From assembly GCF_003635165.1 (NCBI RefSeq), contig NZ_ML058619.1, positions 186,001-250,000 on the forward strand: 64,000 bases of DNA, read 5' to 3'. The notes under the pieces were generated by a model. That model ran no database searches and was not told the origin of the DNA. It worked only from the letters and a program-made list of their open reading frames with translations. Numbering within the stretch: the first letter of the stretch is position 1; every line of letters starts with the position of its first letter. The stretch is from Burkholderia sp. Nafp2/4-1b (GTDB lineage Bacteria; Pseudomonadota; Gammaproteobacteria; Burkholderiales; Burkholderiaceae). The translations under genes were made by a program, and so were the position numbers. Positions 5,435 through 63,554 of this stretch are shown here, in pieces.

Positions 5435-5448
5435 GCAATTCGGATGCC
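5435..5448 (-). promoter_or_regulatory. Sigma-54 promoter for the gene at 5132-5383
   Basis: Read on the minus strand: TGGCATC-CGAA-TTGCT, GG and GC 10 bases apart. Predicted leader of about 41 bases. Back to back with the plus-strand site at 5457. Confidence 0.75.
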
Positions 5449-5456
5449 ACGGTTCG

Positions 5457-5470
5457 GGCAAGCGCCTTGC
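5457..5470 (+). promoter_or_regulatory. Sigma-54 promoter for the PsiD-like decarboxylase
   Basis: GGCAAGCGCCTTGC with correct -24/-12 spacing and T after -12. ATG of the next gene is 38 bases downstream. Confidence 0.7.
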
Positions 5471-5507
5471 TATATCCGTTTGATCCCAACCCGTTCCGGA
5501 GCCGACC

Positions 5508-6758
5508 ATGCCGGCAGACCGCAGCCCGCCGCCCGCCACGCGCCATCGCATCGGCGAATGGATGGCCCGCGAGGAATCGCACATGGCCGACTACCGCGAG
5601 AGAATCGCCAAGGATGCGCGCGCGCATGCCGGCGAACGATTGCGCACGCCCGCCGTGCAGGAACTCGCGCGGCTGTTCGACGACAACGCCGTGCTGCGCA
5701 TGAGCCTCACCCGCGCGATCGACGAAGCGCTCGACTCCGGCCGCAAGCTCGGCTACGCGTCGATCGGCGAACTGATGACCGTGATCGACCACCTGATGAC
5801 GTACACGCCTCCATTCAGCGAAGCGAGCCTGGTCGTGTGTCCGTTGAACGCATTCCTCGACTGGCCGATGTGCATGCCGTCGGGCCACGCGGTGTTTCGC
5901 GACGCGGCGGTCAACGCGCATCTGAAGCAGGTGCTGAACGTATGGTGCGACTTCCTCGGCGGTCCGCACTCGCGCACGCATCTCGACACGTCGCCACCCG
6001 ACGGCTGGTTCTGCGACGAAGCGCACCAACGCCTCGGGCTGCCGCAGTTCGAGTATCGCGAGGACGAACCGCACGGGGGCTTCGCTTCGTGGAACGACTT
6101 CTTCACGCGGCGCTTTCGCGCGGGCGCGCGGCCCGTCGCGGCGCCGGACGATTCACACGTGATCGTCAGCGCATGCGAAGCCGCGCCGTATCACACCGAA
6201 ACGAACCTGAAGATCCGCGACAAATTCTGGATCAAGGGCCAGCCGTATTCGCTGCGCGACATCTTCACGCCCGCGCGGCTGCCGCTCGCCGAGCGCTTCG
6301 TCGGCGGCGACCTGTACCAGGCGTACCTGAGCGCATACAACTATCACCGCTGGCATGCGCCGGTGCGCGGTACCGTCACGCACGCGTACCGGGTCGACGG
6401 CACCTACTATTCGGTCGCCGAAGCGGAAGGCCCCGACCCGGCCGGGCTCAACGACTCGCAGGGCTACATGACGGCCGTGGCCGCGCGCGCGGTGGTCGCG
6501 ATCGACAGCGACGATCCCGGCATCGGCACGGTGGCGGCCGTATTCGTCGGGATGGGCGACGTGTCGTCGTGCGTGATCGAGGTCGTGCCGGGGCAGCGCG
6601 TCGACAAGGGTGACGAGATCGGCTATTTCCAGTACGGTGGCTCGACCTATTGCCTGCTGTTCGAACCCGGCGTGATCGACCGCTTCCTGTGTGCGCCCCC
6701 GTTCGACGGCGAGACGCCGGTCGTGCAGGTCAACGCGTCAGTGGCCATCGCGCGCTGA
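5508..6758 (+). CDS. PsiD-like phosphatidylserine decarboxylase family protein
   Basis: 416 residues, longer than housekeeping Psd because it has the N-terminal PSDC/tryptophan-decarboxylase-like domain (about 1-170) ahead of the pyruvoyl decarboxylase domain. The self-cleavage site is YGGSTYC near residue 384; in this family the chain is cut before the serine, which becomes the pyruvoyl group. ASWNDFFTRRFRAGARPV and NYHRWHAPVRGTV are family hallmarks. Relatives decarboxylate phosphatidylserine or an aromatic amino acid; which applies here cannot be read from sequence. GGAG precedes the ATG, and a sigma-54 site lies just upstream. It stands alone, convergent with the next small gene. Confidence 0.87.
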   Translation: MPADRSPPPATRHRIGEWMAREESHMADYRERIAKDARAHAGERLRTPAVQELARLFDDNAVLRMSLTRAIDEALDSGRKLGYASIGELMTVIDHLMTYTPPFSEASLVVCPLNAFLDWPMCMPSGHAVFRDAAVNAHLKQVLNVWCDFLGGPHSRTHLDTSPPDGWFCDEAHQRLGLPQFEYREDEPHGGFASWNDFFTRRFRAGARPVAAPDDSHVIVSACEAAPYHTETNLKIRDKFWIKGQPYSLRDIFTPARLPLAERFVGGDLYQAYLSAYNYHRWHAPVRGTVTHAYRVDGTYYSVAEAEGPDPAGLNDSQGYMTAVAARAVVAIDSDDPGIGTVAAVFVGMGDVSSCVIEVVPGQRVDKGDEIGYFQYGGSTYCLLFEPGVIDRFLCAPPFDGETPVVQVNASVAIAR

Positions 6759-6999: not shown

Positions 7000-7088
7000 G
7001 TTGTCTCCCCCATTGGCGGCTTGACGCGATGCGGCAGCAGCATCGCGACGTCGCGGGCGCGAATCGTGCGCCTCAAACAAGGAGATAC

Positions 7089-7102
7089 GCATGGACCGTG
7101 CC
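7089..7102 (-). promoter_or_regulatory. Sigma-54 promoter for the gene at 6775-6999
   Basis: Minus strand TGGCACG-GTCC-ATGC: perfect -24 box, -12 box with A in place of the first T. Leader about 79 bases. Confidence 0.6.
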
Positions 7103-7186
7103 AGTATGTGGGAAGCAGCCGCTTCATCTACGGCCGGCTCCCGGCACGATCTGTCGCTTTGGGCCGCGCGGGCGCGGCTGCAAAGT

Positions 7187-8180: not shown

Positions 8181-8232
8181 GGAACGCCTCCCTGTTGCGT
8201 TGCGGCACCGGTCGTGCCGTGCCGGTCTCCGA

Positions 8233-8246
8233 GCAATCGGCGTGCC
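8233..8246 (-). promoter_or_regulatory. Sigma-54 promoter for the DJ-1/PfpI-DUF1488 operon
   Basis: Minus strand GGCACG-CCGA-TTGCT; leader about 41 bases. Confidence 0.75.
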
Positions 8247-8384
8247 GCGCCTCCGTGCACACCCCGCCGGGTGGCCCGCCGTTAATGGGTCGCGACCGCA
8301 ATGGGTGGATGTCGCACCCGCGTCGCTCTCGCCGCGTGAGCCGCGCGACGATAGTCACGCCGCGCCACGCGACGTCTGCAAAGA

Positions 8385-9489: not shown

Positions 9490-9545
9490 GGAGCGTTCTC
9501 CTCAATAGAACCGCTGTTCGTGGAATTTCCTGCGCCTACGGTTCA

Positions 9546-9559
9546 GCAAGGCGCGTGCC
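9546..9559 (-). promoter_or_regulatory. Sigma-54 promoter for the secreted Gly-rich protein
   Basis: Minus strand GGCACG-CGCC-TTGCT; leader about 46 bases. Only 13 bases separate it from the divergent site at 9573. Confidence 0.8.
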
Positions 9560-9572
9560 GTCAGTGATGCGC

Positions 9573-9586
9573 GGCACGCGACTTGC
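9573..9586 (+). promoter_or_regulatory. Sigma-54 promoter for the DUF3175 gene
   Basis: GGCACG-CGAC-TTGC, exact spacing, 45 bases before the ATG at 9632. Confidence 0.8.
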
Positions 9587-9631
9587 GGCGCCGACAGGTC
9601 ATTCACCACGATCCCGTACGGAGCCGCTGCC

Positions 9632-11445: not shown

Positions 11446-14280
11446 TCACGACTTGCCGAGCCGCGTGCGCATCTGCGCGGTGATGCGCTGCCGCGTGTCG
11501 TCATAGCCTTCCCACGGATCGCGCTTGAGGCGGTCGAGCCGTTCGTGCAGCGTGTCGATCGTCCATTGCGCGCCGCTCGTCGTGTCGGGCACCTCGTCCC
11601 AGCGCAGCGGCACCGACACGCCCATCCCGGGCCGCGCGCGCACCGAATACGCGGCGATCGTGCTCGCGCCGCGGCCGTTGCGCAGGTAGTCGATGAAGAT
11701 CTTGCCGCGCCGGTGGCGCGGGCCCATCGTCGCGGTGAAGCGATCGGGCAGCGCGCTCGCGACATGCTGCGCGACCGCGCGCGAGAATTCCTTCACGTCG
11801 TCCCAGCCCATGTGCCGCGTAATCGGTACGACGACGTGCAGCCCCTTGCCGCCGCTCGTCTTGCAGAACGACACGAGGCCGAGCTCGTCGAGCAGGCCGC
11901 GCACGAGTTGCGCGGCCTCGATCATCGTGCTCCACTGCAGCGTCGGGTCGGGGTCGAGGTCAAACACGATCCGGTCGGGCCGCTCGATGTTCGATACGTG
12001 CGCGTTCCACGTATGCAGCTCGATCGTGCCCATCTGCGCGGCGCCGAGCAGCGCGTCGACGCTGTCGAGCGACAGCAGCGGACCGCGGCCCGGATCGAGC
12101 CCTTCGTGTTGCGTGACGAACGGTATCTCGCGGCGCTCCGCGTGCTTCTGGAAGAACAGCTCGCCCGCGATGTCGCCGGGTGCTCGCACGAGCGACACCG
12201 GCCTGCCCTTCAGATCGCGCAGCAGCCACGGCGCGACCCATTGCCAGTAGCGTGCCAGATCGATCTTGCGCGTGCCGCTCTGCGGATCGATCACGCGCTC
12301 GGGATGCGTGATGCGCACGCGGCCGAGCTGGTCGGGACCGCTGTCGTCGCTCGCGCGACGGGCCGGTCCGGCGGATGAGCGCGAACGCGCGGGAGGCTGG
12401 CGATCGCTCGTTTCGCGCGCGCTGCTCGATGCGCGCTTGCGCTTGTCGTCGTGCGTGGTCTGACGTTGATCCATGGTCACCTCCGTTGCCGTGTGCTTCG
12501 GCACTTCGCGGACGATCTGCGACGCCGGTTTGTCGTCGCGCAAAGCGATGAACGCGGCCTGGCGCACGATCCCGTCGCCGGTCCATTCGGCGAATTCGCA
12601 TTCGGCGACGAGCGTCGGTTCGATCCAGTGCACCCGCGTGCGCGAGCGCTCGCGCGGCGGCGGATCGAACGGTGTGGTGTCGCGCTCGTGCTTGCGCAGG
12701 ATCGCCACGAGCTTGTCGAGCATGCGCGTATCGAAGCCGGTGCCGACACGGCCGACGTAGCGGAGCGGCGCCGGCCCGCGCCGCCGCTTGCCGTCGCCCG
12801 GGATCTCGTGCACGCCGAGCAGCAACGCGCCGAATCCGTTGCGGCTGCCCGACGGCTCGGTATAGCCGCCGATCACGAACTCCTGCCGGCGCCGGCATTT
12901 GAGCTTGATCCACGCGGGCGAGCGGCCGGCGCGATAGCGCGACGCCGCACGCTTGCCGATCAGCCCTTCGAGGCCCGTCTCGCACGCGCTCGCGATCAGC
13001 GACGCGACGTCGGCATCGAGATCCGGCGAGAAGCGCAGCCGCGCGGGATCGCTGTCGGCGAGCAGCGGTTCGAGCAGCGCGCGGCGCGCGGTGAGCGGCG
13101 CATCGCGCAAGTCGTAACCGTCCAGATAAGGCAGGTCGAACACGAACAGCGTGACTTCATCGGAACGGCCCGCGCCGAGCGCGTTCTGCAGCGCCTGGAA
13201 ATCGGGGAGTCCGTTCTTGCCGAGCACGACGGCCTCGCCGTCGAGCCACGCCTCGTCGACGTCGAGCGCGGCGAGCGCATCGCGTTGCGTGCGCAATTTC
13301 GCGGTCCAGTCGCGGCCTTCGCGAGTCATCAGCTTCACGTGCCGCCGTGCGCCCTTGCCCGAAATGCGCGCGAGCATCCGGTAGCCGTCGAACTTCAGTT
13401 CGTAGCGCCAGTCGTCCTGCGTGGGCGGGCCGTCGACGAGCGTCGCCAGTTGCGGCGCGACGCGCTCGGGCAGCGGCGCGCGCACCGCGCCTTCGATCGC
13501 GGACGGATCGGTCGGCGGGTTCCCATGATCGGCGCGGCCGTGGTCGTGACCGTCATGCCGCGCGGCACGCGTGCTGCGTTCGTCCGCCTTGTCGGCCCGG
13601 CCACGACGCGCGCCGCGCGTGCGCGCCGCGCCGCCGTTCGACTCCGCACGCGGCGCCGCTTCCGCCGCTCCCTCACCGTCATGCACACTCCCCGGCCGCT
13701 CGCCCACGACATCGAATTCGTCCATGCTGCGCGCGTCGTCGTCGCGCTCCTTGATCAGCAGCCACTGCTCCTGCCGGCCCTCCTGCCGCCCGCTGCGCAC
13801 GAGCGCCCAGCCGCCGTGCAGCTTGTGACCGTCGAGCCGGAAGCTGAGCTTGCCCGCGCGATAGCCTTCGCGGGCCTGCGCGAGCCCGCCGTCGGGCGTC
13901 CACGTACCTTCGTCCCACACGACGACCGATCCCGCACCGTAATGCCCGGCCGGAATCTCGCCCTCGAACCCCGCGTATTCCAGCGGATGGTCCTCGACGT
14001 GCACGGCGAGGCGCTTCACGGTCGGATCGAAGCTCGGCCCCTTCGGCACGGCCCACGACTTCAGCGTGCCGTCCAGCTCGAGCCGGAAGTCGTAATGCAG
14101 GCGCCGCGCATGGTGCTCCTGGATCACGAAGCGCAGCGGATGGCCGGCCCGTGCGGCCGACCGCGAGCGCGCGGCGGGTTTCTCGTCGGCCTTCGTGCGC
14201 CGCCGCCCATGCGCGCCTTCGGGTTCCGGCGTCGCATCGAAGTGGCGTTTGCGGCGATAGGGATCGAGCTTGCCGGCCAT
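11446..14280 (-). CDS. ligD: Multifunctional DNA ligase D (NHEJ)
   Basis: 944 residues, three modules in the order seen in proteobacterial LigD. Phosphoesterase, about 45-200 (FVIQEHHARRLHYDFRLELD); ATP-dependent ligase, about 265-590, with the AMP-accepting lysine in YELKFDGYR near 295; primase-polymerase, about 655-940, with the metal-binding VFDLDPDP near 772 and LDELGLVSFCKTSGGKGLHV. It repairs double-strand breaks with Ku by trimming, filling and sealing ends. Linkers at 200-250 and 610-650 are Arg/Ser/Ala-rich. The start is 29 bases after the ku stop; the pair is clearly co-transcribed. Confidence 0.97.
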   Translation of the reverse strand: MAGKLDPYRRKRHFDATPEPEGAHGRRRTKADEKPAARSRSAARAGHPLRFVIQEHHARRLHYDFRLELDGTLKSWAVPKGPSFDPTVKRLAVHVEDHPLEYAGFEGEIPAGHYGAGSVVVWDEGTWTPDGGLAQAREGYRAGKLSFRLDGHKLHGGWALVRSGRQEGRQEQWLLIKERDDDARSMDEFDVVGERPGSVHDGEGAAEAAPRAESNGGAARTRGARRGRADKADERSTRAARHDGHDHGRADHGNPPTDPSAIEGAVRAPLPERVAPQLATLVDGPPTQDDWRYELKFDGYRMLARISGKGARRHVKLMTREGRDWTAKLRTQRDALAALDVDEAWLDGEAVVLGKNGLPDFQALQNALGAGRSDEVTLFVFDLPYLDGYDLRDAPLTARRALLEPLLADSDPARLRFSPDLDADVASLIASACETGLEGLIGKRAASRYRAGRSPAWIKLKCRRRQEFVIGGYTEPSGSRNGFGALLLGVHEIPGDGKRRRGPAPLRYVGRVGTGFDTRMLDKLVAILRKHERDTTPFDPPPRERSRTRVHWIEPTLVAECEFAEWTGDGIVRQAAFIALRDDKPASQIVREVPKHTATEVTMDQRQTTHDDKRKRASSSARETSDRQPPARSRSSAGPARRASDDSGPDQLGRVRITHPERVIDPQSGTRKIDLARYWQWVAPWLLRDLKGRPVSLVRAPGDIAGELFFQKHAERREIPFVTQHEGLDPGRGPLLSLDSVDALLGAAQMGTIELHTWNAHVSNIERPDRIVFDLDPDPTLQWSTMIEAAQLVRGLLDELGLVSFCKTSGGKGLHVVVPITRHMGWDDVKEFSRAVAQHVASALPDRFTATMGPRHRRGKIFIDYLRNGRGASTIAAYSVRARPGMGVSVPLRWDEVPDTTSGAQWTIDTLHERLDRLKRDPWEGYDDTRQRITAQMRTRLGKS

Positions 14281-14309
14281 CGCGTCACCTCAGGTTGTGT
14301 CGCGCGGCG

Positions 14310-15344
14310 TCATGCGGCGTGCTTGCGACGCGCGGCGGTAGACTTCTTCGCCGCATGCTCGCCAGCCGCCGGACGCTTCGCCGCAGGCCGTTTCGCCGCA
14401 GCGGTTTTCGTGGCCGCGCCCTTCGCGGCGGTTTTCGACGGCGCCTTGCGTCGCGTGCCGCCGCGCGCCGTCGATGACGACGACGCGTCCGTGTCCGCCT
14501 CCGCGTCCTCGTCGTCCTTACCGCGCAGGTCCGCCGCACGCGGGCCGCCGCCGCCCTTCAGGCTGCGCTTCAGCAACTCGGTCAGGTCGACCACGTTGGT
14601 CGCCGCGCGGCCCGTCTGCGCGGGGCGGTCCTCGATTTCCTCGATCTTGCCCGCGCTCACCTTGCGCTCGACGAGTTCGAGGATGTCGTCGCGAAACGTG
14701 TCGTGATACTCGTCGGGCGTCCACTTGCCGGCCATGTCGTCGATCAGCTTCTTCGCCATCGCGAGCTCGCGCGCGGTCACGCCCGCGCGCTTCGCATCCT
14801 CGGTCGGCACCGACAGCTCGTCGAGCGGCCGCAGCTCTTCCTGCCAGCGCAGCGTGTCGAGCGCGAGCACCGGCCCGACCGGGATCAGGGCGCCGAGATG
14901 CTGGCGATCGCGCATCACGACGAGCGCGATGCCGATCTTGCCGCTGTCCTTCAGTGCGTCGCGCAACAGCGCATAGACCTTCTCGCCCTTGCGGTCCGGC
15001 ACGAGGTAGTACGGCGTGTCGAGATAGAGGAACGACACCGCATCCTCGTCGACGAACGTCAGGATGTCGACCGTCTGCGTCGATTCGGGATTCGCCGCCC
15101 GGATCTCGTCGTCGGTCAGGACGACGTAGCGCTCCTTCTCGTACTCGTAGCCGCGCACGATGTCCTCGCGCGTGACTTCCTTGCCGGTGCGCTTGTTGAT
15201 CTGCCGATAGCCGATCGGATCCATCGAACGCTTGTCGAGCATCCGGAACGACGGCTTCACCGTGCGCGTTGCCGGGAACAGCTGCACCGGCACGTGAACG
15301 AGCCCGAAGCTGATCGCGCCTTTCCATATCATCCGCGGTGGCAT
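14310..15344 (-). CDS. ku: Non-homologous end-joining protein Ku
   Basis: 344 residues. The Ku core at about 8-260 begins WKGAISFGLVHVPVQLFPAT and includes YRQINKRTGKEVTREDIVRG and the bridge region. It forms a homodimer that rings DNA ends and recruits LigD. The last 80 residues are a Lys/Ala/Pro-rich extended tail of the kind that binds DNA and promotes end bridging in other bacterial Ku proteins. Located between katE and ligD with short gaps (58 and 29 bases), so a katE-ku-ligD transcript is likely. No sigma-54 site was found for this trio. Confidence 0.97.
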   Translation of the reverse strand: MPPRMIWKGAISFGLVHVPVQLFPATRTVKPSFRMLDKRSMDPIGYRQINKRTGKEVTREDIVRGYEYEKERYVVLTDDEIRAANPESTQTVDILTFVDEDAVSFLYLDTPYYLVPDRKGEKVYALLRDALKDSGKIGIALVVMRDRQHLGALIPVGPVLALDTLRWQEELRPLDELSVPTEDAKRAGVTARELAMAKKLIDDMAGKWTPDEYHDTFRDDILELVERKVSAGKIEEIEDRPAQTGRAATNVVDLTELLKRSLKGGGGPRAADLRGKDDEDAEADTDASSSSTARGGTRRKAPSKTAAKGAATKTAAAKRPAAKRPAAGEHAAKKSTAARRKHAA

Positions 15345-15402
15345 GTTGCCTCCTTGCTGCGTTCGCGCCCGCCGCGCGATGCGACGGGCGCCTCGTGCGG
15401 CG

Positions 15403-17511
15403 CTAGGCCGGCAGCTCGGCTGCCTGCTGCTCGCGCGCCCACACGCGATGCCGGCCGATCTCGTCCGAGAACGTGCGCAGGATCGCGTCGAGATCGACCG
15501 CCTGCCCGACGCACACGCCTTCGGCCGGATCCGGCAGGTGCGCGGCGCTCAACAACTGACGCCCGGAGCCGACCGCCGCGATCGGCTTCAGGTGCTTGAA
15601 CGCCTCGCGCACGAAGTGCCGCGCGTCCGCGCTGTGCGCGAGCCCTCGACCGTCGCCGTCGCCGCCGCACACGAACACCGCGTCGAACATCACCGAAGGC
15701 ATCCCGACCAGCGTCGCCTGCGGCACGATGCTGCCGATCGGCGCGAGCGTCGGCGCGACGATCGTGGGCACCGCGCCCGCGGCCGTCAGCGCGCCGCGCA
15801 CCTGCTCGACCAGCGTCTGGCTCACGCCCGGCGTCGCGATCAACGCGATCTTGCGCGAGCGGATCCCGGGCTTCGATCGCCCGATCAGGCTCAGCGACGG
15901 CGCGCGCTGCGCGACGGCCGGCGTCGTGGCCGTTTGCGGGGCAGGCAGCCCGAGCCGTTCCGCGACCTGCGCGGCGAGCCCCGCATCGAAGCGCGCGATG
16001 ATCTCGTTGACCACGCGTTCGCGAATCTCCTGCTTCGTCACCTTGCCGAGCTCGAAGCAGTACGCGTCGCGAATATGCCGCTGCTCGATCTCGGTCATGC
16101 TCTGATAAAACAGCGCGGGCTGCGAGAAATGGTCGGCGAACGTGTCGCTGCGCACGCGCACCTTGTCGCCTTCGAGCGGTTCGTGCACGGTCTCGAAGCC
16201 GCCGCCGGACGGTGCGGGCGGCGTCTCGCGCGGCCAGCCGCCGTTCAGCGAATTCGGTTCATACGACGCCTGCCCGACCGCGATCGTCTGCCGATGCATC
16301 GCATCGCGCTGGTTGTTCGCGAACGGACACAGCGGCCGGTTGATCGGCAGCTCGTGGAAGTTCGGGCCGCCGAGCCGGCTCAGCTGCGTGTCGGTGTACG
16401 AAAAGAGACGCCCCTGCAGCAGCGGATCGTTGGTGAAGTCGATGCCGGGCACGACGTGCCCCGGATGAAACGCGACCTGCTCGGTTTCCGCGAAGAAGTT
16501 GTCCGGATTGCGGTTCAGCGTCATGCGGCCGATCGGCTTCACGGGCACGAGCTCTTCCGGCACGAGCTTGGTCGGGTCGAGCAGGTCGAAGTCGAACTTG
16601 CGCGCGTCGGCCGGATCGATCAATTGCACGCCGAGCTCGAACTCCGGATAGTCGCCGCGCTCGATCGCCATCCACAAGTCGCGCCGGTTGAAGTCGGGGT
16701 CGTGGCCGGCGATGCGCTGCGCTTCGTCCCACAGCAGCGAATATGCGCCGCTCACCGGGCGCCAGTGGAATTTCACGAAATGCTCGGCACCCGCCGCGTT
16801 CACGAAGCGGAACGTGTGCACGCCGAAGCCGTCCATCGCACGATAGCTCGCGGGCAGCGCGCGATCGGACATCAGCCACAGCACGGTATGCGTCGTCTCC
16901 GGCACGAGCGACACGAAATCCCAGAACGTATCGTGCGCGGACGCACCGGTCGGCATCTCGTTCGGCGCCTCGGGCTTCACCGCGTGCACGAAGTCGGGAA
17001 ACTTGATCGCGTCCTGGATGAAGAACACCGGCATGTTGTTGCCGACCAGATCGTAGTTGCCCTCTTCGGTATAGAACTTCACCGCGAAGCCGCGCACGTC
17101 GCGGACCGTGTCGGCCGACCCGCGCGGGCCCTGCACGGTGGAAAAGCGCACGTACACCGGCGTTTCGGCGGCGGGATCCTGCAGGAACGCGGCCTTCGTG
17201 TAGTCGGCCATCGATTCGTAGACGCGAAACACGCCGTGCGCGGCCGAGCCGCGCGCATGCACGACCCGTTCGGGAATCCGTTCGTGGTCGAAGTGCGTGA
17301 TCTTCTCGCGCATGATGAAGTCTTCGAGCAGCGACGGGCCGCGCGCACCGGCGCGCAACGTGTTCTGGTTGTCGGCAATGCGCACGCCCTGGTTGGTGCG
17401 CAATGCCTCGCCGTCGGGCCGCAGCCGGTTCTCGTCCAGCTGACGCGACTTCGCGCTGTCGGCCTGCGGCGGATTCGACGGCGGGTTGCCGGCTTGAGGG
17501 GGATTCGTCAT
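15403..17511 (-). CDS. katE: Large-subunit catalase (HPII type)
   Basis: 702 residues, close to HPII length. The haem catalase core (about 45-550) has the distal histidine in [12 protein letters not shown] (His85), the region [18 protein letters not shown], and the proximal tyrosine in [14 protein letters not shown]. The C-terminal 150 residues form the DJ-1/flavodoxin-like domain of large catalases ([24 protein letters not shown]). It removes hydrogen peroxide in the cytosol. First gene of the katE-ku-ligD run; the upstream gap holds the terminator of the rpoN operon. I could not identify its promoter type. Confidence 0.96.
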
Positions 17512-17595
17512 CGGCGAGTCCTCGTTTTAGGTTCGGTTCGGTGAAAGACGGCGTCGTGCGCGACGATTTCCCGGCACGCACGACACGCCGGCGCG

Positions 17596-17631
17596 AAAAA
17601 AAACGGGCCCAGCGGCGCGCCGCACGGGCCC
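17596..17631 (-). terminator. Rho-independent terminator of the rpoN operon
   Basis: On the minus strand, CGGGCCC pairs with GGGCCCG around a GC-rich inner loop, followed by eight T. It lies 30 bases past the stop of the gene at 17661. Confidence 0.85.
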
Positions 17632-17660
17632 GGATGCGGTAGCCGATACGGGCGGCTGCG

Positions 17661-18047
17661 TCAGGGTGCCTGCAACGCGCGTTCGAACTCGGCGTGGGTC
17701 ACGTCGAGCGCGACGCTGCAGTCGATCGCGGCGTCCTCGATACGCGGCTTCTGCTCGTCCACCGCGCGCCGCGCGCGATCGCACAGCTGGGTGCGTACAC
17801 GCAGCCGGTCGGCCGCGCCGAGCGACCCGTAGCGCACGAGCACATCGGGATCGAGCCGCAGGTCGACCGCGCAGCGCCATGCGCGTGCGCTGTCGTCGGC
17901 CGGCACGCGCACCCATGACACGTGGATCGTCAGCCGGCCGGACACGTCGTCGGCATCCGTGACGACAGTCGATTCCGACGGAAAGCCGTTCGCGAGCGCA
18001 CTTTCGAGTTCAGCGATGCGCTGCGAACGGTCGGACAGGGCCGTCAT
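17661..18047 (-). CDS. Conserved hypothetical protein, paralogue of the gene at 8500-8865
   Basis: 128 residues starting [20 protein letters not shown]. The body reads [20 protein letters not shown] then an [20 protein letters not shown] helix, matching the layout of the 8500-8865 protein (beta strand, short loop, long helix). Its ATG overlaps the stop of the 53-residue membrane protein (ATGA), so the two are translationally coupled. Last gene of the rpoN operon. Function unknown; probably cytosolic. Confidence 0.78.
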
Positions 18048-18205
18048 CGTCGCACGACACCCAGCAGCAGCGTGACCAGGAAGATCACGACGAAGATGTA
18101 GAACAGGATCTTCGCGATCTCGGCCGCACCGGCCGCGATGCCGCCGAAGCCGAACACGGCGGCGATGATCGCGATGACGAAGAAAATGAGGGCGTATCGA
18201 AGCAT
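18044..18205 (-). CDS. DUF1328 (YtjA/UPF0391) small membrane protein
   Basis: 53 residues: [20 protein letters not shown], then [18 protein letters not shown] and a second hydrophobic stretch. This is the standard two-helix DUF1328 protein. Family members are small inner-membrane proteins often induced by stress; role unknown. AGGAGG stands just before the ATG. The stop overlaps the start of the next gene. Confidence 0.9.
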
Positions 18206-18251
18206 GAATTCCTCCTGGAGAACGGTGACCGTGGGCGCCTGTCGCCGGCGA

Positions 18252-18440
18252 TCAAGAATCGTGCTTGTGCTTGGGTTTGCCGCGGGTCGGCGTCGAAGCC
18301 ATTTTTTCGAGCTCCTTCTCGCTCATCGACTTGGCCATCGACTTCGAAGGCGGCTTCAGGTCCTTCATCTTGGTGTCGCCGCGCTTGGCCGACAGGGCGG
18401 CCCCCGCGGCGCGCTGCTGTGCCTGGGATTTGGCTGGCAT
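18252..18440 (-). CDS. DUF3008 family small basic protein
   Basis: 62 residues starting [20 protein letters not shown], with the typical middle [19 protein letters not shown] and a lysine/histidine-rich tail. This is a short DUF3008 protein, likely unstructured and of unknown function, common near stress genes in proteobacteria. It sits 70 bases after the rpoN stop and 46 bases before the DUF1328 gene on the same strand. Confidence 0.88.
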
Positions 18441-18510: not shown

Positions 18511-19947
18511 TCATGCGGCGTCGCGCCGGCGCAGTTCGGCCGGCGGAATTTTCATCGCCTGGCGATACTTCGTGACGGTACGACGCGCAAGAAGGATGCC
18601 GCGGCCCGCGAGGTTCTGCGCGAGCGCGACGTCGGACAGCGGATCGTTGTGGCGCTCGGCCGCGATCATGTCGCGGATCAGGACCTTCGCGGCGGATGCC
18701 GAGCACACGCCCTTGCCGGCGGCCTCCAGCTTGCGCGGGAAGAAGTGCTTGAACTCGAAGGTGCCGTGCGGCGTGGCCATGTACTTGTTGCCCGTCGCGC
18801 GCGACACGGTCGATTCATGCAGGTCGAGCTCTTCGGCGATGTCGCGCAGCACGAGCGGCTTCATCGCGATCTCGCCGTAGCGGAAGAAATCGCGCTGCCG
18901 CGCGACGATGCATTCGCCGACCCGCTGGATCGTGTCGAAGCGCTTCTGCACGTTGCGGATCAGCCAGCGCGCTTCCTGCAGCTGCTGGCCGAGCGGCGAA
19001 TCGCGCTCGCCGCTCGACTGCGCGAACAGCGTCGCATAGCGTTCGTGCAGCCGCGCGCGCGGCAGCACCGCCGGGTTGATCGTCACGATCCATTCGTCGC
19101 GCACCTGGCGCACGATCACGTCGGGCACCACGTAGTCGCCGCGCGTGCTGCCGTAGTGGTTGCCCGGGCGCGGATCGAGCCCGCGCACCAGCGCGCATGC
19201 GGCCTGCATCGTCGCCTGGCTGCAGCCGACGCGCCGCTGGATCTCGGCGGTCTCGCGGCGTGCCAGCCGTTCGAGATGTTCGCGCGCGATCACCTTCGCT
19301 TCGGCGAGCGCCGGCGTGCCGGCCGGAATCGCGTCGAGTTGCAGCACGAGACACTCGGACAGCGAGCGCGCGGCGATACCCGGGCGGTCCAGCATCTGCA
19401 CGAGCCGCAGCGCGACCGCGAGATCCTGTTCGGACAACAGCAGCGCCGGATCGGCCGCGACCAGCAGCTCGGACAGCTCCTGACGCAGGTAGCCGTCTTC
19501 GTCGAGCGCGTCGATGATGAGGCGCGCAGCTTCGCGGTCGCGCCGGTTCAACGGATAGAGCCGCAGCGCGTCGTGCAGTTGCTGGTGCAGCGACGGCTCG
19601 GCCGCCATCCATTCGCCCGGCGACAGATCACCGCCGTCGTCGCCCTGGCGGCCTGCGCCGCGCGGCGCGGGGGCCGCCGTGTACGACACGTCCGCGTCCG
19701 GCGGACGCACGTCGTCGTCGCGCTCCGGCAACGGCTCGGGCTCAGCAGCGTCGGTTGTGGTTTCCGGCGCATCGGCGCTGACTTCGTCGTCGCCCTGGCC
19801 ATCTTCGAGAAACGGATTCGAGTCGAGCGCCTGCCGCAATTCCTGCTGGAATTCGAGCGAAGACAACTGCAGCAGACGAAGCGACTGCTGAAGCCTCGGC
19901 GTAAGTGCCAGATGCTGACGCATCTGCAGCGCAAGCGTGACGGACAT
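18511..19947 (-). CDS. rpoN: RNA polymerase sigma-54 factor (accessory RpoN)
   Basis: 478 residues with all parts of sigma-54. Region I is Q/L-rich (LALQMRQHLALTPRLQQSLR) and binds enhancer-binding proteins, an acidic region II lies at about 50-115, then the core-binding domain, the helix-turn-helix and the RpoN box ARRTVTKYRQ near the C-terminus (canonical ARRTVAKYRE, two changes). It directs polymerase to -24/-12 promoters. The context differs from the housekeeping rpoN, which lies in an lptB-hpf-ptsN-type cluster: here it leads an operon with DUF3008, DUF1328 and a small conserved gene. A -24/-12 site stands in front of the gene itself. I infer an accessory copy. Confidence 0.95.
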   Translation of the reverse strand: MSVTLALQMRQHLALTPRLQQSLRLLQLSSLEFQQELRQALDSNPFLEDGQGDDEVSADAPETTTDAAEPEPLPERDDDVRPPDADVSYTAAPAPRGAGRQGDDGGDLSPGEWMAAEPSLHQQLHDALRLYPLNRRDREAARLIIDALDEDGYLRQELSELLVAADPALLLSEQDLAVALRLVQMLDRPGIAARSLSECLVLQLDAIPAGTPALAEAKVIAREHLERLARRETAEIQRRVGCSQATMQAACALVRGLDPRPGNHYGSTRGDYVVPDVIVRQVRDEWIVTINPAVLPRARLHERYATLFAQSSGERDSPLGQQLQEARWLIRNVQKRFDTIQRVGECIVARQRDFFRYGEIAMKPLVLRDIAEELDLHESTVSRATGNKYMATPHGTFEFKHFFPRKLEAAGKGVCSASAAKVLIRDMIAAERHNDPLSDVALAQNLAGRGILLARRTVTKYRQAMKIPPAELRRRDAA

Positions 19948-19994
19948 CGATGCCCTCCTGACGGTGTGCGAAAAATTCCTGTGACGGAATCAAT

Positions 19995-20008
19995 GCAGCA
20001 TCCGTGCC
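19995..20008 (-). promoter_or_regulatory. Sigma-54 promoter of the rpoN operon
   Basis: Minus strand TGGCACG-GATG-CTGCA: perfect -24 box and a -12 box with C for the first T. Leader about 37 bases. Implies self-control by a sigma-54 factor. Confidence 0.75.
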
Positions 20009-20083
20009 AGCTCGGCAAAGCCCCGTCCGAAGCGGCTCTCCGGCGTTTTCACCCCATTATCCAAAGTCGTTGGGGCCGCTTTT

Positions 20084-21122: not shown

Positions 21123-21207
21123 TCGAGCGTCGTTGCGTCGTCCTTACGGGATCGGATCTGCGGTGCGGCGTGCACTCGCCGTCTGCTGCTTTGCACATAC
21201 AAGGTCC

Positions 21208-21221
21208 GCAATGCATGTGCC
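21208..21221 (-). promoter_or_regulatory. Sigma-54 promoter for the 21122-20195 gene set
   Basis: Minus strand GGCACA-TGCA-TTGC, spacing exact; leader about 75 bases. Confidence 0.7.
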
Positions 21222-21329
21222 GCGCTGCACGTCGCCTCTGCGCGCGCCCACGTACGCGCATGCACGCCGCCGCGCCGGGCGCCGTGCCTTCGCTACACCG
21301 CGCGCTGCAATTCTTTCAAGTGCATCGCG

Positions 21330-21635: not shown

Positions 21636-21716
21636 CGTGCCTCCCGCTTCATGTTGGTGTGGTTGGTGTGCGCGCGGCACAAGGCACCGCACGTTGGCGT
21701 CGTCACCGCTCAGGCG

Positions 21717-21730
21717 GCAAGTCGCGTGCC
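21717..21730 (-). promoter_or_regulatory. Sigma-54 promoter for the gene at 21330-21635
   Basis: Minus strand GGCACG-CGAC-TTGC; leader about 70 bases. Divergent pair with 21745-21758. Confidence 0.8.
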
Positions 21731-21744
21731 GTCAGTGCACTGCG

Positions 21745-21758
21745 GGCACGGCGGTTGC
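21745..21758 (+). promoter_or_regulatory. Sigma-54 promoter for the gene at 21798-22052
   Basis: GGCACG-GCGG-TTGC, exact spacing, 39 bases before the ATG. Confidence 0.8.
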
Positions 21759-21797
21759 GCCTTTACCGCATCATCGTCACCGACACGGAGCCACGCC

Positions 21798-22052: not shown

Positions 22053-22104
22053 CGCGCGACGGCCCCATTCCGACGCCCGGCTCATGGCCGAACGGCGCGC
22101 CTCC

Positions 22105-22118
22105 GGCACGCCGCTTGC
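22105..22118 (+). promoter_or_regulatory. Sigma-54 promoter for the CBS-domain gene
   Basis: GGCACG-CCGC-TTGCT; full match to consensus apart from the base before GG. Leader about 29 bases. Confidence 0.82.
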
Positions 22119-22158
22119 TGAACCGGACGGCTCCGCTTGAACCGGCAAGGAGAACTAC

Positions 22159-28834: not shown

Positions 28835-28868
28835 CACGTTTCTCCAGATGGTCGGATGCGGCCCCGAC

Positions 28869-28882
28869 GCAAACTGCGCGCC
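28869..28882 (-). promoter_or_regulatory. Sigma-54 promoter for the lone receiver gene
   Basis: Minus strand GGCGCG-CAGT-TTGC; -24 box has GCG for ACG. Leader about 24 bases. Confidence 0.6.
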
Positions 28883-28898
28883 CATATCGACTGCGTCC

Positions 28899-28912
28899 GG
28901 CATGCCGGTTGC
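28899..28912 (+). promoter_or_regulatory. Sigma-54 promoter for udgX and the NRAMP-like gene
   Basis: GGCATG-CCGG-TTGCT, exact spacing; 158 bases before the chosen udgX ATG. Divergent pair with 28869-28882. Confidence 0.6.
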
Positions 28913-29070
28913 TGCATGCCATCGATATCGTCGATACGGGAGCCGTTGATGCGCGCACTGCCGATGTTCCGGTCCGCCGGGGCCTTCGATCCGCCTGCCG
29001 CCGGCACGCGGACGTACCGGGCCGCGCGCTGCGCCGCGTACGGGCCACCGGCATGCGCGGGAGGCGCCGC

Positions 29071-36030: not shown

Positions 36031-36079
36031 CGTGACCTCCTTTCATGAAGCCGGCAGCGCCGGCGGGTATCGCGGTGGC

Positions 36080-36093: not shown

Positions 36094-36143
36094 GCGCGCA
36101 GGATGCCGCGCCCCCGCGCGGCAGCGCGATCAGACGCCCTTTC

Positions 36144-36159: not shown

Positions 36160-36202
36160 TTTTTTCGGCGCATCAGGGGGGCGCTTGCCCCGCAAAGCGC
36201 CG

Positions 36203-36216
36203 GGCATGGCGATTGC
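36203..36216 (+). promoter_or_regulatory. Sigma-54 promoter for the GT4/UDP-xylose synthase operon
   Basis: GGCATG-GCGA-TTGC, exact spacing; leader about 43 bases. Confidence 0.72.
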
Positions 36217-36271
36217 CGAACAGGGACGCAACGGGGCCCATCGGCGCGGCCCCGACCTTGGGAGCAACACC

Positions 36272-40378: not shown

Positions 40379-40444
40379 CGGAGACGCTCCTGCCGCACGG
40401 CCGGCAATGGCCGGCCAAAGGGATACGCACGGCGGATGCGCGCG

Positions 40445-40458
40445 GGCACGCCGCATGC
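40445..40458 (+). promoter_or_regulatory. Sigma-54 promoter for the PIG-L/GT2 pair
   Basis: GGCACG-CCGC-ATGC, exact spacing, A for the first T of the -12 box. Leader about 97 bases, including the 9-base repeats. Confidence 0.55.
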
Positions 40459-40496
40459 TCGTGCGCAACTTCGCCGGCCGGCACTGTCCGCCCGGG

Positions 40497-40541
40497 CACC
40501 GCTTGCACCGCTTACACCGCTTACACCATCTGCACCGCTTG
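40497..40541. repeat. 9-base tandem repeat in the leader of the PIG-L gene
   Basis: Five units: CACCGCTTG, CACCGCTTA, CACCGCTTA, CACCATCTG, CACCGCTTG. Ends 25 bases before the ATG, so copy-number change would alter the leader. Confidence 0.8.
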
Positions 40542-42210: not shown

Positions 42211-43587
<1,377 letters not shown>

Positions 43588-52383: not shown

Positions 52384-52456
52384 ATGCACCTCCTGTTGGC
52401 GTCCGAAGAATCGTGGCGATGACACTTGTCGTGACAAGCGTCGTACAAGAGGCAGA

Positions 52457-52470
52457 GCGAAAAGCGTGCC
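52457..52470 (-). promoter_or_regulatory. Sigma-54 promoter for the seven-gene glycan operon
   Basis: Minus strand TGGCACG-CTTT-TCGCT: perfect -24 box, C in place of the second T of the -12 box. Leader about 64 bases. Confidence 0.62.
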
Positions 52471-52523
52471 ACTGGGCGGACGGCCGCGCCGCATCGGGCT
52501 GGAGCGCGCGCGCGCTGGCTTTT

Positions 52524-56904: not shown

Positions 56905-56978
56905 CGTGTCCTCCTAGATCGCGCCTGTGCCGCGCACGGCCCCATTGTCGCGACGCGGCGCGCGTCGATCCGGGCGTT

Positions 56979-56992
56979 GCAAATCGCGTGCC
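56979..56992 (-). promoter_or_regulatory. Sigma-54 promoter for the BON/ABC-fusion operon
   Basis: Minus strand GGCACG-CGAT-TTGCA, full match including A after -12. Leader about 63 bases. A CTGCAA-N5-TTGCAG palindrome at 57101-57117 lies 108 bases upstream. Confidence 0.83.
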
Positions 56993-57145
56993 GCGCGACC
57001 GTCCGGCCCCCGCGCCGGAAAGCCGGCGCGCGGCCGACATTGCGAGTCAGCGCAGTCACGTATCGATCGGGTGGGTCTGCCGGCCTAAGGTCGTGCCTAT
57101 CTGCAACGCCATTGCAGTTTTTGCGCAAGGCGTGGTGCCAGGCCC

Positions 57146-57511: not shown

Positions 57512-57595
57512 GTCGGTGTCCTCGTGTAGCGTCGGGCTGCCGCCCGCCGGGCGTCTCTCGCCGGGCAAGCCGCGGCGTGCGGGTCGCCATGGGAT

Positions 57596-57609
57596 GCAAT
57601 CCGCATGCC
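57596..57609 (-). promoter_or_regulatory. Sigma-54 promoter for the acidic protein
   Basis: Minus strand GGCATG-CGGA-TTGCA, exact spacing. Leader about 73 bases. Confidence 0.75.
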
Positions 57610-57683
57610 GGATCGCCGCCGCCGGACGCGGGAAGCCCCCGATCAAGTGGACGCGCCGGCGCGGCACGCGCAATGCGCTCCCA

Positions 57684-60972: not shown

Positions 60973-61309
60973 GTGAGGCCCTCCTTGTCGAAAGCGGAAA
61001 CGGTGCAGATACCGTCGTGCTGTTCGAGCAAGGTGCGCGCCTGTCGGTGTGCGGGGTCGGCGGAGGCGCTCATGCCGCTCATGCCGCGCGCGCCGGTCGC
61101 ACCGTTAAGTCCCGCATTCGCCGGGCCGCGTCACGACGGGCGACGCACGCGCTTCTTCGCGGCGCGCCCGCACCTCGGGCCGGTACGCGCGCCGCGCGAT
61201 GCTGCTACGATCGACTCACCACTGGCGGCGGCCCGCGCGACGATGCGGTTGTGCTCGCGCACCGTATGGCCGCCGCGTCCTCGTTCGCCGGCGATGGAGG
61301 TACCGACCG
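60973..61309. other. 337-base intergenic region
   Basis: Carries the sigma-54 site of the alcohol dehydrogenase (61028-61041). The part toward the small plus-strand gene shows no clear promoter. Confidence 0.5.
61028..61041 (-). promoter_or_regulatory. Sigma-54 promoter for the alcohol dehydrogenase/copper protein pair
   Basis: Minus strand GGCGCG-CACC-TTGCT; -24 box has GCG for ACG. Leader about 45 bases. Confidence 0.62.
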
Positions 61310-61528
61310 ATGCAAGCAAGCGACACGTACATGGATCACGAGATTCGCGTCGAAGCGACGCGCAATGCGAACGGCGCGTGGGTCGCGCACGTGCGGATCT
61401 TCCGCGACGGCGCACCGATCGACCTGCCCGCGCCCGAACTCGTCACACCCGAATGGCTCACCTGCGACGAAGCGCTGCGCGGCGGCATCGACCAGGGCCG
61501 CGTGATGATCCGCACGCACGACCGCTAG
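61310..61528 (+). CDS. Small conserved hypothetical protein
   Basis: 72 residues starting MQASDTYMDHEIRVEATRNA, then ANGAWVAHVRIFRDGAPIDL and a helix DEALRGGIDQGRVMIRTH. It reads as a single beta-sheet plus helix domain like small proteins that follow DUF1488-type genes. GGAGG lies 9 bases before the ATG. No partner gene on its strand. Confidence 0.72.
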   Translation: MQASDTYMDHEIRVEATRNANGAWVAHVRIFRDGAPIDLPAPELVTPEWLTCDEALRGGIDQGRVMIRTHDR

Positions 61529-61693
61529 CCGCGTCCCATGTGGCGCCGGGCGTTATAAGCGGTGCACGGCTGCGTGCGCCGCGCACCCGATGGCGCTGCA
61601 CGTTACCAATCGGCAACCTGCGCAAAGGCGAGCGATCGCGTGAGCGTGAACGGCGGAATGAGGGGCGGGGCCGAGTCGCAAGACAGCCCGCAT

Positions 61694-63229
61694 TCACGCG
61701 TGCGGCGCGTCCTGCTGCTCGAGCGCCGCTTCCGCGCGCAGGCAGTCGAGATCGCGGCCGATCGTCGCGACCGCGAGCCGCTTGTTGCCGCGCCAGTACG
61801 TCACCGAACCGTCATGCGCGCGCAGGTCGCCGTCGATCTCGACACGATCCCATTGCTCGGCATGGCCCGCGTAACGCACCGCCAGGTCGTAGTGCTGGCT
61901 CCAGAAGAACGGCACGGCGTCGAACGGCCGTTGCTGGCCGAGCATGTTGCGCGCCGCGGCGATGCCCTGCCGCTCCGCGACAACCCAGTGCTCGACGCGG
62001 ATGCGCTCGCCCGTCAACGGATCCGGCCAGCGCGCGATGTCGCCGGCCGCGTAAATGTCGGGCGCGCTCGTCCGAAGGAAACGATCGACCGTCACGCCGC
62101 GATCGACGGCCAACCCCGCCTCCTGCGCAAGCGCGACGTCCGGATGCACGCCGATGCCGACCACCACGACGTCGGCGGGCAGTACGTCGCCGTTCGACAG
62201 CGTCACGCAGTCCGGCGCGATCTGCGTGAGCGTCGCGCCGAGATGGAACCGCACGCCATGCGACTCGTGCAGCGCGCGGATCGTGTCGCCGAGCGCGTCG
62301 CCGAGCACGCGCGCCATCGGATGCGCATCGGGCGCGACCACCTGCACGTCGAGCCCGCGCGTGCGCAGCGCGGCGGCCGCTTCCAGACCGATGAAGCTCG
62401 CGCCAACCACGACGCAGCGCTGCGCCGTCTTCAGCTTGCCGATCAACGCATCGCAATCGGCGCGCGAGCGCAGCACGCACACGTGCGGCAGATCGGCACC
62501 CGGCACGCTCAGCCGGTTCGGCTCGGCGCCGGTGGCGAGCAGCAGCGCGCCGTAGCCCACGCGGCTGCCGTCCGCCAGTTCGACCGCGTGCTGCGCGGGA
62601 TCGATCCGCGCGACACGCGTGCCGCAGCGCACGTCGATGCGCTGGTCGGCATAGAACGATGCGCCGCGCAGCGGCAACCAGTCGGCTTCGGCCGTGCCGG
62701 CCAGATAATCCTTCGACAGGTTCGGCCGGTCGTACGGCGGCTCGCCGTCGGCACTCAACAGCGTGATTGCATGCGGATAGCCCTGTTGCCGCAGCGTCAC
62801 CGCCCCTGCGATCGCGGCCGCGCCGCCGCCGACGATCACCACCGATGCAGGCAGCGCGGCCGCGTTCGGTATCGGCGGCGTTGCGGCGGGACGCGCATCG
62901 AGCACGACCGCGCGGCCGTCGCGGCGCTCGACACGCCAGCACGTCAGCCCGTCGAGCGCCGGCGCGCGCAGCATTGCGCCGGTGCGCAGGCAGAACGCCG
63001 CGTGATGCCACGGGCAGCGAATCGTGTCGCCAACCAGCAGCCCCTCGGCGAGCGGACCGCCGTAGTGCGGGCATTGCGCGCTCACGGCGAACAGTTCGTC
63101 GGCGCGGCGCACCAGCAGCACCGCTGCATCGCCGACCTGGCCCTCGATCATCGCGCCATCGGCGAGGTCGTCGAGCGCGATGCCCTGCGCGAGATCGGGA
63201 CGTGAAGACGAGGCGTCGCTTGCGGACAT
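61694..63229 (-). CDS. Rieske-FAD pyridine nucleotide-disulfide oxidoreductase (AIFM3-like)
   Basis: 511 residues. The N-terminal Rieske [2Fe-2S] domain (about 15-110) has ligands in AQCPHYGGPL and IRCPWHHAAF. The FAD/NAD reductase follows, with VVIVGGGAAAIAGAVTLRQQ near 125, NADH-binding RCVVVGASFIGLEAAAALRT and a C-terminal FAD-binding DIYAAGDIARWPDP. The layout matches AIFM3-like/Nfr reductases that pass electrons from NADH to an iron-sulphur centre. Physiological acceptor unknown. The ATG is at MSASDASSSRPDL; longer frames lack homology. Confidence 0.94.
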   Translation of the reverse strand: MSASDASSSRPDLAQGIALDDLADGAMIEGQVGDAAVLLVRRADELFAVSAQCPHYGGPLAEGLLVGDTIRCPWHHAAFCLRTGAMLRAPALDGLTCWRVERRDGRAVVLDARPAATPPIPNAAALPASVVIVGGGAAAIAGAVTLRQQGYPHAITLLSADGEPPYDRPNLSKDYLAGTAEADWLPLRGASFYADQRIDVRCGTRVARIDPAQHAVELADGSRVGYGALLLATGAEPNRLSVPGADLPHVCVLRSRADCDALIGKLKTAQRCVVVGASFIGLEAAAALRTRGLDVQVVAPDAHPMARVLGDALGDTIRALHESHGVRFHLGATLTQIAPDCVTLSNGDVLPADVVVVGIGVHPDVALAQEAGLAVDRGVTVDRFLRTSAPDIYAAGDIARWPDPLTGERIRVEHWVVAERQGIAAARNMLGQQRPFDAVPFFWSQHYDLAVRYAGHAEQWDRVEIDGDLRAHDGSVTYWRGNKRLAVATIGRDLDCLRAEAALEQQDAPHA

Positions 63230-63554
63230 GGCGGGGCTCCCTGGGTGTGAGGCAACGATTCGATTATCGGCGTCGTTCTCGAAAAGAACAGGTACAGACG
63301 ACCCCGCAGCGCACGCAAATGCGAACTGTAGGTAAGACGCGATCCGCGACCGGCGTAGAACGTCGACGACGTTGCGGTGCAACACGCAGCATGCGCCTGC
63401 GAGCGGCGGCCCGCGATGCAAAGCAAGCCGCGTGCCGCGTGGATCGATCACCGGCCGGTGCGGGATTCGCGCGCGTCCAGCCGAGCGCGTGACGTACACC
63501 GCGCGCACGTTGCGCATCGCCGTCCCGGTGCTCGATACCCCGCGTGTTCCTCCG
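63230..63554. other. 325-base intergenic region
   Basis: Contains the sigma-54 site at 63423-63436 for the Rieske/FAD gene. Otherwise nothing recognised; several open frames here are not protein-like. Confidence 0.5.
63423..63436 (-). promoter_or_regulatory. Sigma-54 promoter for the Rieske/FAD reductase
   Basis: Minus strand GGCACG-CGGC-TTGCT, exact spacing; unusually long leader of about 180 bases. Confidence 0.72.

Follow-up and report, generated by a model that had tools for sequence, protein, structure and literature searches.

A stretch of 64 000 nucleotides from Burkholderia sp. Nafp2/4-1b (hereafter the window; C23:186001-250000, 69% GC, ~0.8% of a genome of 7.79 Mb in 92 contigs) was analysed for sigma-54 promoters. 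It holds a dense cluster of -24/-12 sites around rpoN2, the gene of an accessory sigma-54 factor, together with the genes of two bacterial enhancer-binding proteins (bEBP1 and bEBP2); the observed cluster was confirmed to be real. The region is probably the centre of an RpoN2 stress regulon that is both dedicated and self-amplifying. This reading is the best supported one because the promoters are conserved, RpoN2 and bEBP1 co-occur across genomes, rpoN2 has a site of its own, the protein falls into a distinct clade, and the three targets tested (SDR, BON and DUF3175 genes) are missing or siteless where RpoN2 is missing.

Sigma-54 sites in the window

Sites were located with a weighted -24/-12 scan requiring the GG and GC dinucleotides (maximum score 24.5, weights based on the sigma-54 consensus) at a main cut-off of 21.5 and a looser one of 20.5. 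The reversed motif and 100 shuffles of the window served as controls. Genes were called with the analysis's own caller rather than taken from an annotation (61 in the window), operons were joined across gaps of ≤200 nt, and Pfam was run on 50 of the 61 called window proteins.

The exact motif GGCACG-N4-TTGC was found 10 times in the window and 72 times genome-wide (reversed motif: 36 genome-wide), 0.51 window sites being expected from the rest of the genome (Poisson P 2e-10). Four further window sites read GGCATG-N4-TTGC, which occurs 35 times in the genome. When ≤1 mismatch was allowed, the window gave 39 matches, compared with 13.0 ± 3.6 (maximum 22) in the shuffles. The weighted scan returned 23 sites versus 6 for the reversed motif at 21.5, and 41 versus 14 at 20.5. 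In the sequence examined beyond the window, the real motif was about as frequent as the reversed one at 21.5 (18 versus 18 in the remaining 267 kb of C23; 7 versus 6 in 100 kb of C1/C20). The high local density from which the initial annotation had argued was thus borne out relative to both the rest of the genome and shuffled sequence.

In 19 of the 23 weighted sites the -12 GC lies 36-333 nt upstream of a called start and in the correct direction. Three sites (12242, 37922 and 45972) lie inside genes and were excluded from the promoter count; the remaining one (5434, minus strand) initially had no called gene, and an 83-aa reading frame begins 52 nt downstream of it. Addition of three sites just below the cut-off (28868, minus; 36202, plus; 57662, plus) brings the number of candidate promoters to 23. 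Their GG and GC dinucleotides, at fixed spacing and in front of genes, are those of sigma-54 promoters. The initial annotation had listed 22 sites fitting GGCACG-N4-TTGC, almost all at 24-110 bases before start codons; the number is close to that of the candidate promoters, and only 10 are exact matches. Its estimate that about 48 of 64 genes are covered agrees with the 48 of 61 independently called genes found behind sigma-54 sites, those not covered including bEBP1, bEBP2 and a broken hybrid kinase. All 10 exact sites in the window are promoter-placed, as are all 6 in the rest of C23 (one of which overlaps the 3' end of the preceding gene) and 19 of the 56 outside C23. Promoter-placed exact sites are thereby ~48x denser in the window than elsewhere, placement outside C23 having been judged from gene calls on stretches of 2.5-5.5 kb, so that some sites there are possibly misjudged.

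For comparison with relatives, 75 kb around rpoN2 was taken from 23 hand-chosen genomes (22 of the 49 other RpoN2-bearing genomes of the genus and G098, from another family); site densities were computed on 13 of them. The recurrence of sites across the 23 regions has no chance control of its own, and a column-wise alignment with 12 close relatives supplies one. Twenty promoters were aligned with 7-12 close relatives each, giving mean identities of 0.96 for the motif, 0.68 for the N4 spacer and 0.52 for the 20-nt flanks, and the motif exceeded its flanks in 20/20 cases. Retention of the -24/-12 elements amid drifting spacers and flanks is what is expected of sigma-54 promoters under selection. 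The site before rpoN2 recurs in relatives down to 51% protein identity. The RpoN2 region of G098 (14 versus 2 reversed at 21.5, 21 versus 2 at 21) is a diverged second case of dense sites.

Four pairs of divergent promoters stand back to back (5434-5471, 9545-9587, 21716-21759 and 28868-28913), with 16-mer starts 22, 27, 28 and 30 nt apart, respectively. In a positional comparison across 10 close regions, the 28-nt pair recurred in all 10 (26-28 nt), the 22-nt pair in 9 of them (21-22 nt) and the 30-nt pair in 5, and the 27-nt pair varied between 27 and 45 nt. Because of this arrangement, the enhancers cannot all sit directly upstream of both partners. An expectation-maximization motif search over 30 upstream regions scored above all 6 shuffles whichever of four widths was used (109.6 versus 67.9-86.8 at width 16), shared divergent regions being counted twice and the shuffles run with 250 seeds versus 400 for the real set. 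Similar AT-rich blocks were seen 45-145 nt upstream of ~8 window promoters. A shared upstream activator motif is a lead only.

RpoN2, its activators and their distribution

The rpoN2 gene (18511..19947, minus strand) encodes 478 aa with the AID, core-binding and DNA-binding domains and the RpoN box of the family (Pfam PF00309/PF04963/PF04552; NCBIfam NF009118, 820 bits). As NF009118 also takes the RpoN1 of the same genome above cut-off (540 bits), this model does not separate the two, which are 46% identical. RpoN1 occupies the usual housekeeping context (lptA/lptB, hpf and ptsN, named by eye), in agreement with the earlier statement that the rpoN of the window lies outside it. In a tree of 36 sequences the Burkholderia, Paraburkholderia, G098 and Nevskia copies form one clade (100/99). 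The RpoN box reads ARRTVTKYR in 17/17 clade members and RRTVAKYR in all 19 others (Ala to Thr). Judged from its sequence, RpoN2 is a deep sigma-54 paralog and no recent copy. Since the RpoN box contacts the -24 element, the exchange makes altered promoter recognition possible.

A sigma-54 site (19994..20009, minus) precedes the rpoN2 operon and is found at 52-75 nt (16-mer start to start codon) in 21/23 orthologs, at 193 nt in one and not at all in one. Downstream of rpoN2 the operon continues with DUF3008, DUF1328, DUF3022, katE, ku and ligD (11446..18440, minus; Pfam). For these downstream genes the sole candidate for a site of their own is a match scoring 20.0 before DUF3008, located within rpoN2. 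The katE gene is present in 7/23 relative regions.

Among named species, the closest kin of RpoN2 are in Burkholderia latens (96%) and B. ambifaria (95%), from which the host would be placed as a strain of the Burkholderia cepacia complex. B. anthina AZ-4-2-10-S1-D7 and Burkholderia sp. MS389 carry the gene on chromosome 3; in one record of B. cenocepacia its replicon, of 1.1 Mb, is classed as a plasmid, and in one of B. stagnalis the replicon measures 3.2 Mb. The region is therefore often, not always, on the third replicon.

Both enhancer-binding proteins announced in the initial annotation were recovered by their domains. bEBP1 (42211..43587, minus; Pfam) is of the NtrC family, with a receiver, an AAA+ domain whose GAFTGA-type loop reads GSFTGA, and a Fis-type helix-turn-helix (HTH). 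Its assignment as NtrC itself was rejected (TIGR01818: 385.6 bits versus a cut-off of 558.6), and it is NtrC-type only. Two matches to bEBP1 in other genomes (G047:C3:235487-236863 and G013:C33:862-2238) contain one internal TGA and lie within an open frame of >1270 aa. Divergent from bEBP1, bEBP2 (43943..45013, plus, the start being a candidate) consists of AAA+ and HTH domains by Pfam on 44045-45013; no sensory domain was found by Pfam or by NCBIfam (on 43940-45013). It is present in 17/23 relative regions.

Of the 61 genomes examined in the genus, 50 carry an ortholog of RpoN2 (66-100% identity), and 11, including G031 with only 82% completeness, have the RpoN1 type only among the matches listed; RpoN1 is present in 61/61. 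bEBP1 occurs in exactly the 50 RpoN2-bearing genomes and not in the other 11 (E 1e-120). Orthologs of the SDR and BON genes with >50% identity are absent from all 11 RpoN2-less genomes. The DUF3175 gene has its site in 13/15 RpoN2-bearing regions, and in 3/3 readable RpoN2-less genomes (a fourth lies at a contig end) the gene is kept and the site is absent. In a set of 300 Burkholderiales genomes, two or three sigma-54 matches were found in 16, and a bEBP1 homolog (≥52%) is present in 15 of those versus 10 of the 284 others (Fisher 7e-18, without phylogenetic correction). Outside the genus, bEBP1 is present in 23 genomes, and in at least 6 of them (G179, G098, G158, G198, G157 and G065) a sigma-54 gene lies within ~8 kb of it. 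In the gammaproteobacterium Nevskia, RpoN2, bEBP1 (57%) and a kinase-receiver gene are found within ~8 kb in 3/3 loci; two of these (L055 and L056) have a separate bEBP2 homolog (53%), and in L057 the bEBP2 query matches the bEBP1 gene. These copies of the RpoN2 clade together with bEBP1 suggest transfer between classes.

Genes behind the promoters and sites elsewhere

The promoters are given from left to right, the fractions in brackets being the orthologs in relatives that have the site. The outermost pair consists of 5434..5449 (minus), for the 83-aa reading frame 5132-5383, and 5456..5471 (plus), for a phosphatidylserine decarboxylase-type gene (5508-6758; 10/10). Sites 7088..7103 (minus) and 8232..8247 (minus) precede gene 6775-6999 (12/12) and DJ-1/PfpI 7632-8180 with DUF1488 7287-7628 (10/10 at ≤400 nt, 9 of them at 65-83 nt), respectively. 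The next pair comprises 9545..9560 (minus), for 8956-9324 and DUF3022-like 8500-8865 (2/2 comparable), and 9572..9587 (plus), for DUF3175 9740-9988 and a Na/H exchanger 10031-11350 (13/15). To the right of the rpoN2 operon, 21207..21222 (minus) stands before 20865-21122, 20557-20868 and 20195-20506 (7/7), 21716..21731 (minus) before gene 21330-21608 (12/13) and, back to back with the latter, 21744..21759 (plus) before gene 21798-22052 (15/15). Site 22104..22119 (plus) precedes a CBS-pair protein 22159-22590 and a PRC-barrel protein 22681-23163 (14/14 at ≤400 nt, 11 at 49-80 nt; two of the other three are actually the site of the 21798 gene). In the fourth pair, 28868..28883 (minus) belongs to a receiver protein 28385-28903, the true start of which is probably near 28834, and 28898..28913 (plus) to a UDG-family (UdgX-like) gene 29245-29784 of uncertain start, followed by Nramp 29781-31088 (9/9 at ≤400 nt).

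In the right half, 33469..33484 (minus) precedes SDR 32577-33434, DUF4142 31940-32551 and DUF892 31269-31880 (8/9); a further site directly before DUF4142 31940 (score 20.5) recurs in only 3/11 orthologs and was rejected. Site 36079..36094 (minus) precedes BON 35617-36030, SDR 34561-35589, DUF2795 34223-34522 and 33584-34150 (13/13), and 36202..36217 (plus) a glycosyltransferase 36272-37588 and an epimerase 37585-38634 (10/10). PIG-L 40567-41292 and GT2 41331-42194 follow 40444..40459 (plus; 8/8), and an SDR/HAD/GT9/carbamoyltransferase/GT operon (45067-52383; Pfam) lies behind 52456..52471 (minus; 8/9). Site 56978..56993 (minus) is that of BON 55936-56904 and 53031-55889 (11/11); the latter gene encodes an ABC exporter with a receiver domain fused to its C terminus. 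Gene 57146-57511 follows 57595..57610 (minus; 9/11), a PAS-kinase-receiver gene 57811-59400 follows the weaker 57662..57677 (plus; score 20.5; 8/9), a zinc alcohol dehydrogenase 59767-60972 follows 61027..61042 (minus; 7/7), and a Rieske/FAD reductase 61694-63229 follows 63422..63437 (minus; 13/13 at ≤400 nt, 12 at 203-208 nt).

By Pfam, the genes behind these sites thus include KatE, Ku, LigD, DJ-1, the UDG family, CBS, PRC, two BON and several DUF proteins; three SDRs, the zinc dehydrogenase, the Rieske/FAD reductase, the Na/H exchanger, Nramp and the phosphatidylserine decarboxylase-type enzyme; and GT4/GT9/GT2, the epimerase, PIG-L, the carbamoyltransferase, the ABC transporter-receiver fusion and the PAS kinase-receiver.

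Elsewhere on C23, promoter-placed sites precede ten genes, including those for MEDS-kinase-receiver (G000:C23:63517/63672), NUDIX, MR/MLE, TPP-enzyme, SDR, MgtC (161612), NinX-like and GlgE (166346) proteins. Since site counts outside the window equal the control, MgtC, GlgE and the other C23 genes are candidate members only, and the regulon may reach beyond the window to such genes. A sister mini-module (L292/L293, G000:C1:878630-886307) has sigma-54-like sites and encodes proteins resembling those of 20557, 21798, CBS, PRC, 33584, BON, the kinase and bEBP2 (by eye except for CBS); no general site excess was found over 40 kb there (11 versus 8 reversed). Universal-stress-like genes, recognised by eye, adjoin this module on C1. 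The left edge of the window (1-4913) is a separate segment, in which a glycosidase-like gene and a LacI-type regulator were recognised by eye, and it also holds a kinase with a weak RsbRD-like match below the family cut-off. This segment lacks sigma-54 sites at 21.5, and none of its genes has an ortholog with ≥60% identity in the 23 relative regions.

Proposed mechanism, alternatives and known systems

A sigma-54 polymerase stays closed until an AAA+ activator remodels it. In the proposed mechanism, RpoN2 holoenzyme would bind the -24/-12 promoters of ~23 transcription units in the window, a signal would arrive at bEBP1 via its receiver, and bEBP1 would then open the promoters, bEBP2 perhaps being a second or downstream activator. 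Through the site before its own operon RpoN2 would boost its own synthesis (positive feedback), and katE, ku and ligD would follow. The predicted output comprises catalase, end-joining DNA repair, DJ-1, the UDG-family protein, small DUF/BON/CBS/PRC proteins, oxidoreductases, ion/metal transporters and envelope glycan operons, a set of functions that would make up a general stress response under sigma-54 control. The preference for RpoN2 over RpoN1 as main reader, bEBP1 as activator, the signal and the feedback are all inferred.

Genuine sigma-54 promoters might equally or mainly be read by the housekeeping RpoN1, with RpoN2 merely adding dosage. We regard this as unlikely, although the consensus is canonical and RpoN2 of B. 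pseudomallei complements an E. coli rpoN mutant, so that recognition probably overlaps (PMC4745423). The CBS gene of the sister module is preceded by a site, 48 nt from the start codon, in 5/5 further genomes, including the RpoN2-less G001 and G003, and RpoN1 can therefore probably serve such a gene. Against an RpoN1-read cluster stand the 11 RpoN2-less genomes, in which bEBP1 and two of the tested targets were not found at the thresholds given above, the DUF3175 gene that is kept but has no site in all three readable cases, and a B. pseudomallei rpoN2 mutant that loses katE transcription while retaining rpoN1 (PMC4745423). The dedicated regulon proposed in the initial annotation is accordingly favoured by conservation, linkage and co-occurrence, and the word "dedicated" is unproved in view of the CBS site in RpoN1-only genomes. 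Still less likely, in our estimate, is a pile-up of independent sigma-54 operons with many activators on one replicon and no single regulon. The units vary in mosaic fashion from one relative to the next, the window encodes several kinases and receivers, and a single activator motif was not established: a motif trained on 17 non-duplicated window promoters failed to separate 10 held-out C23 promoters from 19 promoter-placed sites elsewhere (P 0.06). However, bEBP1 and RpoN2 form a constant core while the targets vary, only two sigma-54 activators were found among the 50 of 61 window proteins scanned, and the AT-rich blocks upstream of ~8 promoters are alike. GC-rich composition or chance, to which a GC-rich motif in a window of 69% GC might point, has a negligible probability, being refuted by the shuffles, the reversed-motif and genome controls and the column-wise conservation.

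Several further observations weigh against a dedicated RpoN2 regulon. The RpoN2 regions of G006, G008 and G051 show no excess within 75 kb at 21.5 (5 versus 7, 6 versus 7 and 10 versus 10), from which it follows that the dense cluster belongs to part of the clade, and the excess in G098 drops to 27 versus 17 at 20.5. Three genomes counted as RpoN2-less (G005, G011 and G042) have further, weaker sigma-54 matches beyond those listed, and the co-occurrence statistics ignore phylogeny. A promoter of katE itself was sought and rejected, as no strict score in the 289 nt covered exceeded 16.5 (of 24.5), and an earlier report of RpoS control of KatE is cited in PMC4745423. Finally, the hybrid histidine kinase near bEBP1 (PAS, kinase and receiver; 38662..40500, minus, right end approximate, from alignment to relatives) is a remnant with a broken frame, ~0.59 kb including HisKA being missing relative to relatives. 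At the junction the flanking alignments overlap by 8-17 nt in 2/3 relatives aligned (G010 and G016, not G017), and the break reflects either a deletion peculiar to this strain or an error in the assembly. bEBP1 here either receives its input from a different kinase or belongs to a switch that has changed in this strain.

The general stress responses of sigma-S, sigma-B and EcfG comprise a broad protective set including catalase, end joining, DJ-1 and BON/CBS/DUF proteins. The proposed RpoN2 stress regulon resembles them in this broad content, by family annotation only, and differs in that its promoters are of the activator-dependent -24/-12 type rather than of the sigma-70 class (sigma-70-class promoters were not scanned for). 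The RpoN paralogs of Rhodobacter sphaeroides serve nitrogen fixation and flagella and are not known to serve stress genes. Like the system proposed here, they are matched to their own activators and promoters (PMC3162934). A second RpoN linked to stress adaptation is also encoded on the megaplasmid of Bradyrhizobium sp. DOA9 (RpoNp, 22 predicted targets), for which no local cluster around the gene was seen in the passages covered (PMC13207237). The lxa locus of B. cenocepacia is likewise a large stress locus in Burkholderia, with six universal stress proteins (PMC9104464, PMC3759415, PMC6127331); no member of the Usp family was found by Pfam among the 50 of 61 window proteins scanned. Two rpoN copies are general in multi-replicon beta-proteobacteria, and rpoN2 of Ralstonia solanacearum was dispensable for the traits tested (PMC4371752).

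Closest is B. pseudomallei, in which the second rpoN also lies on the secondary replicon, an RpoN box is predicted before katE and katE expression needs rpoN2 at 48-72 h; in the passages covered, the rpoN2 mutant had no nitrogen or amino acid phenotype (PMC4745423). There, katE is the one promoter-level target, with a predicted box, and the partial proteome changed by 21 spots, whereas here katE belongs to the rpoN2 operon and has no separate site; the same passages report neither an activator nor a regulon (PMC4745423). PMC12322963 cites a 2024 paper that deals with RpoS and RpoN2 in B. pseudomallei within macrophages. The initial annotation knew of no description of such a regulon, and none was found in open-licence PubMed Central papers. 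As far as the open literature shows, the regulon reading is thus new, and the control of katE by RpoN2 was already known (PMC4745423).

In a wider and more tentative interpretation, which we hold at somewhat below even chances, a sigma-54-based general stress response would form a transferable, self-amplifying module in which an RpoN paralog, its box altered, works with activators of its own. This module would have recruited end-joining repair, KatE, envelope genes and perhaps GlgE/MgtC, would extend from Burkholderiales to Nevskia, and would represent an architecture beside sigma-S/sigma-B and EcfG. If the RpoN2 stress regulon is real, Burkholderia place a broad survival programme, often on the third replicon, under a sigma factor that depends on an activator and requires both a signal and ATP. 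The analysis offers a list of targets, a candidate for the activator and a residue signature by which RpoN2-type factors can be told apart, and the purpose of the second sigma-54 becomes a directly testable question. On this evidence, a broad programme of stress survival in these bacteria appears to run on machinery other than that usually expected.

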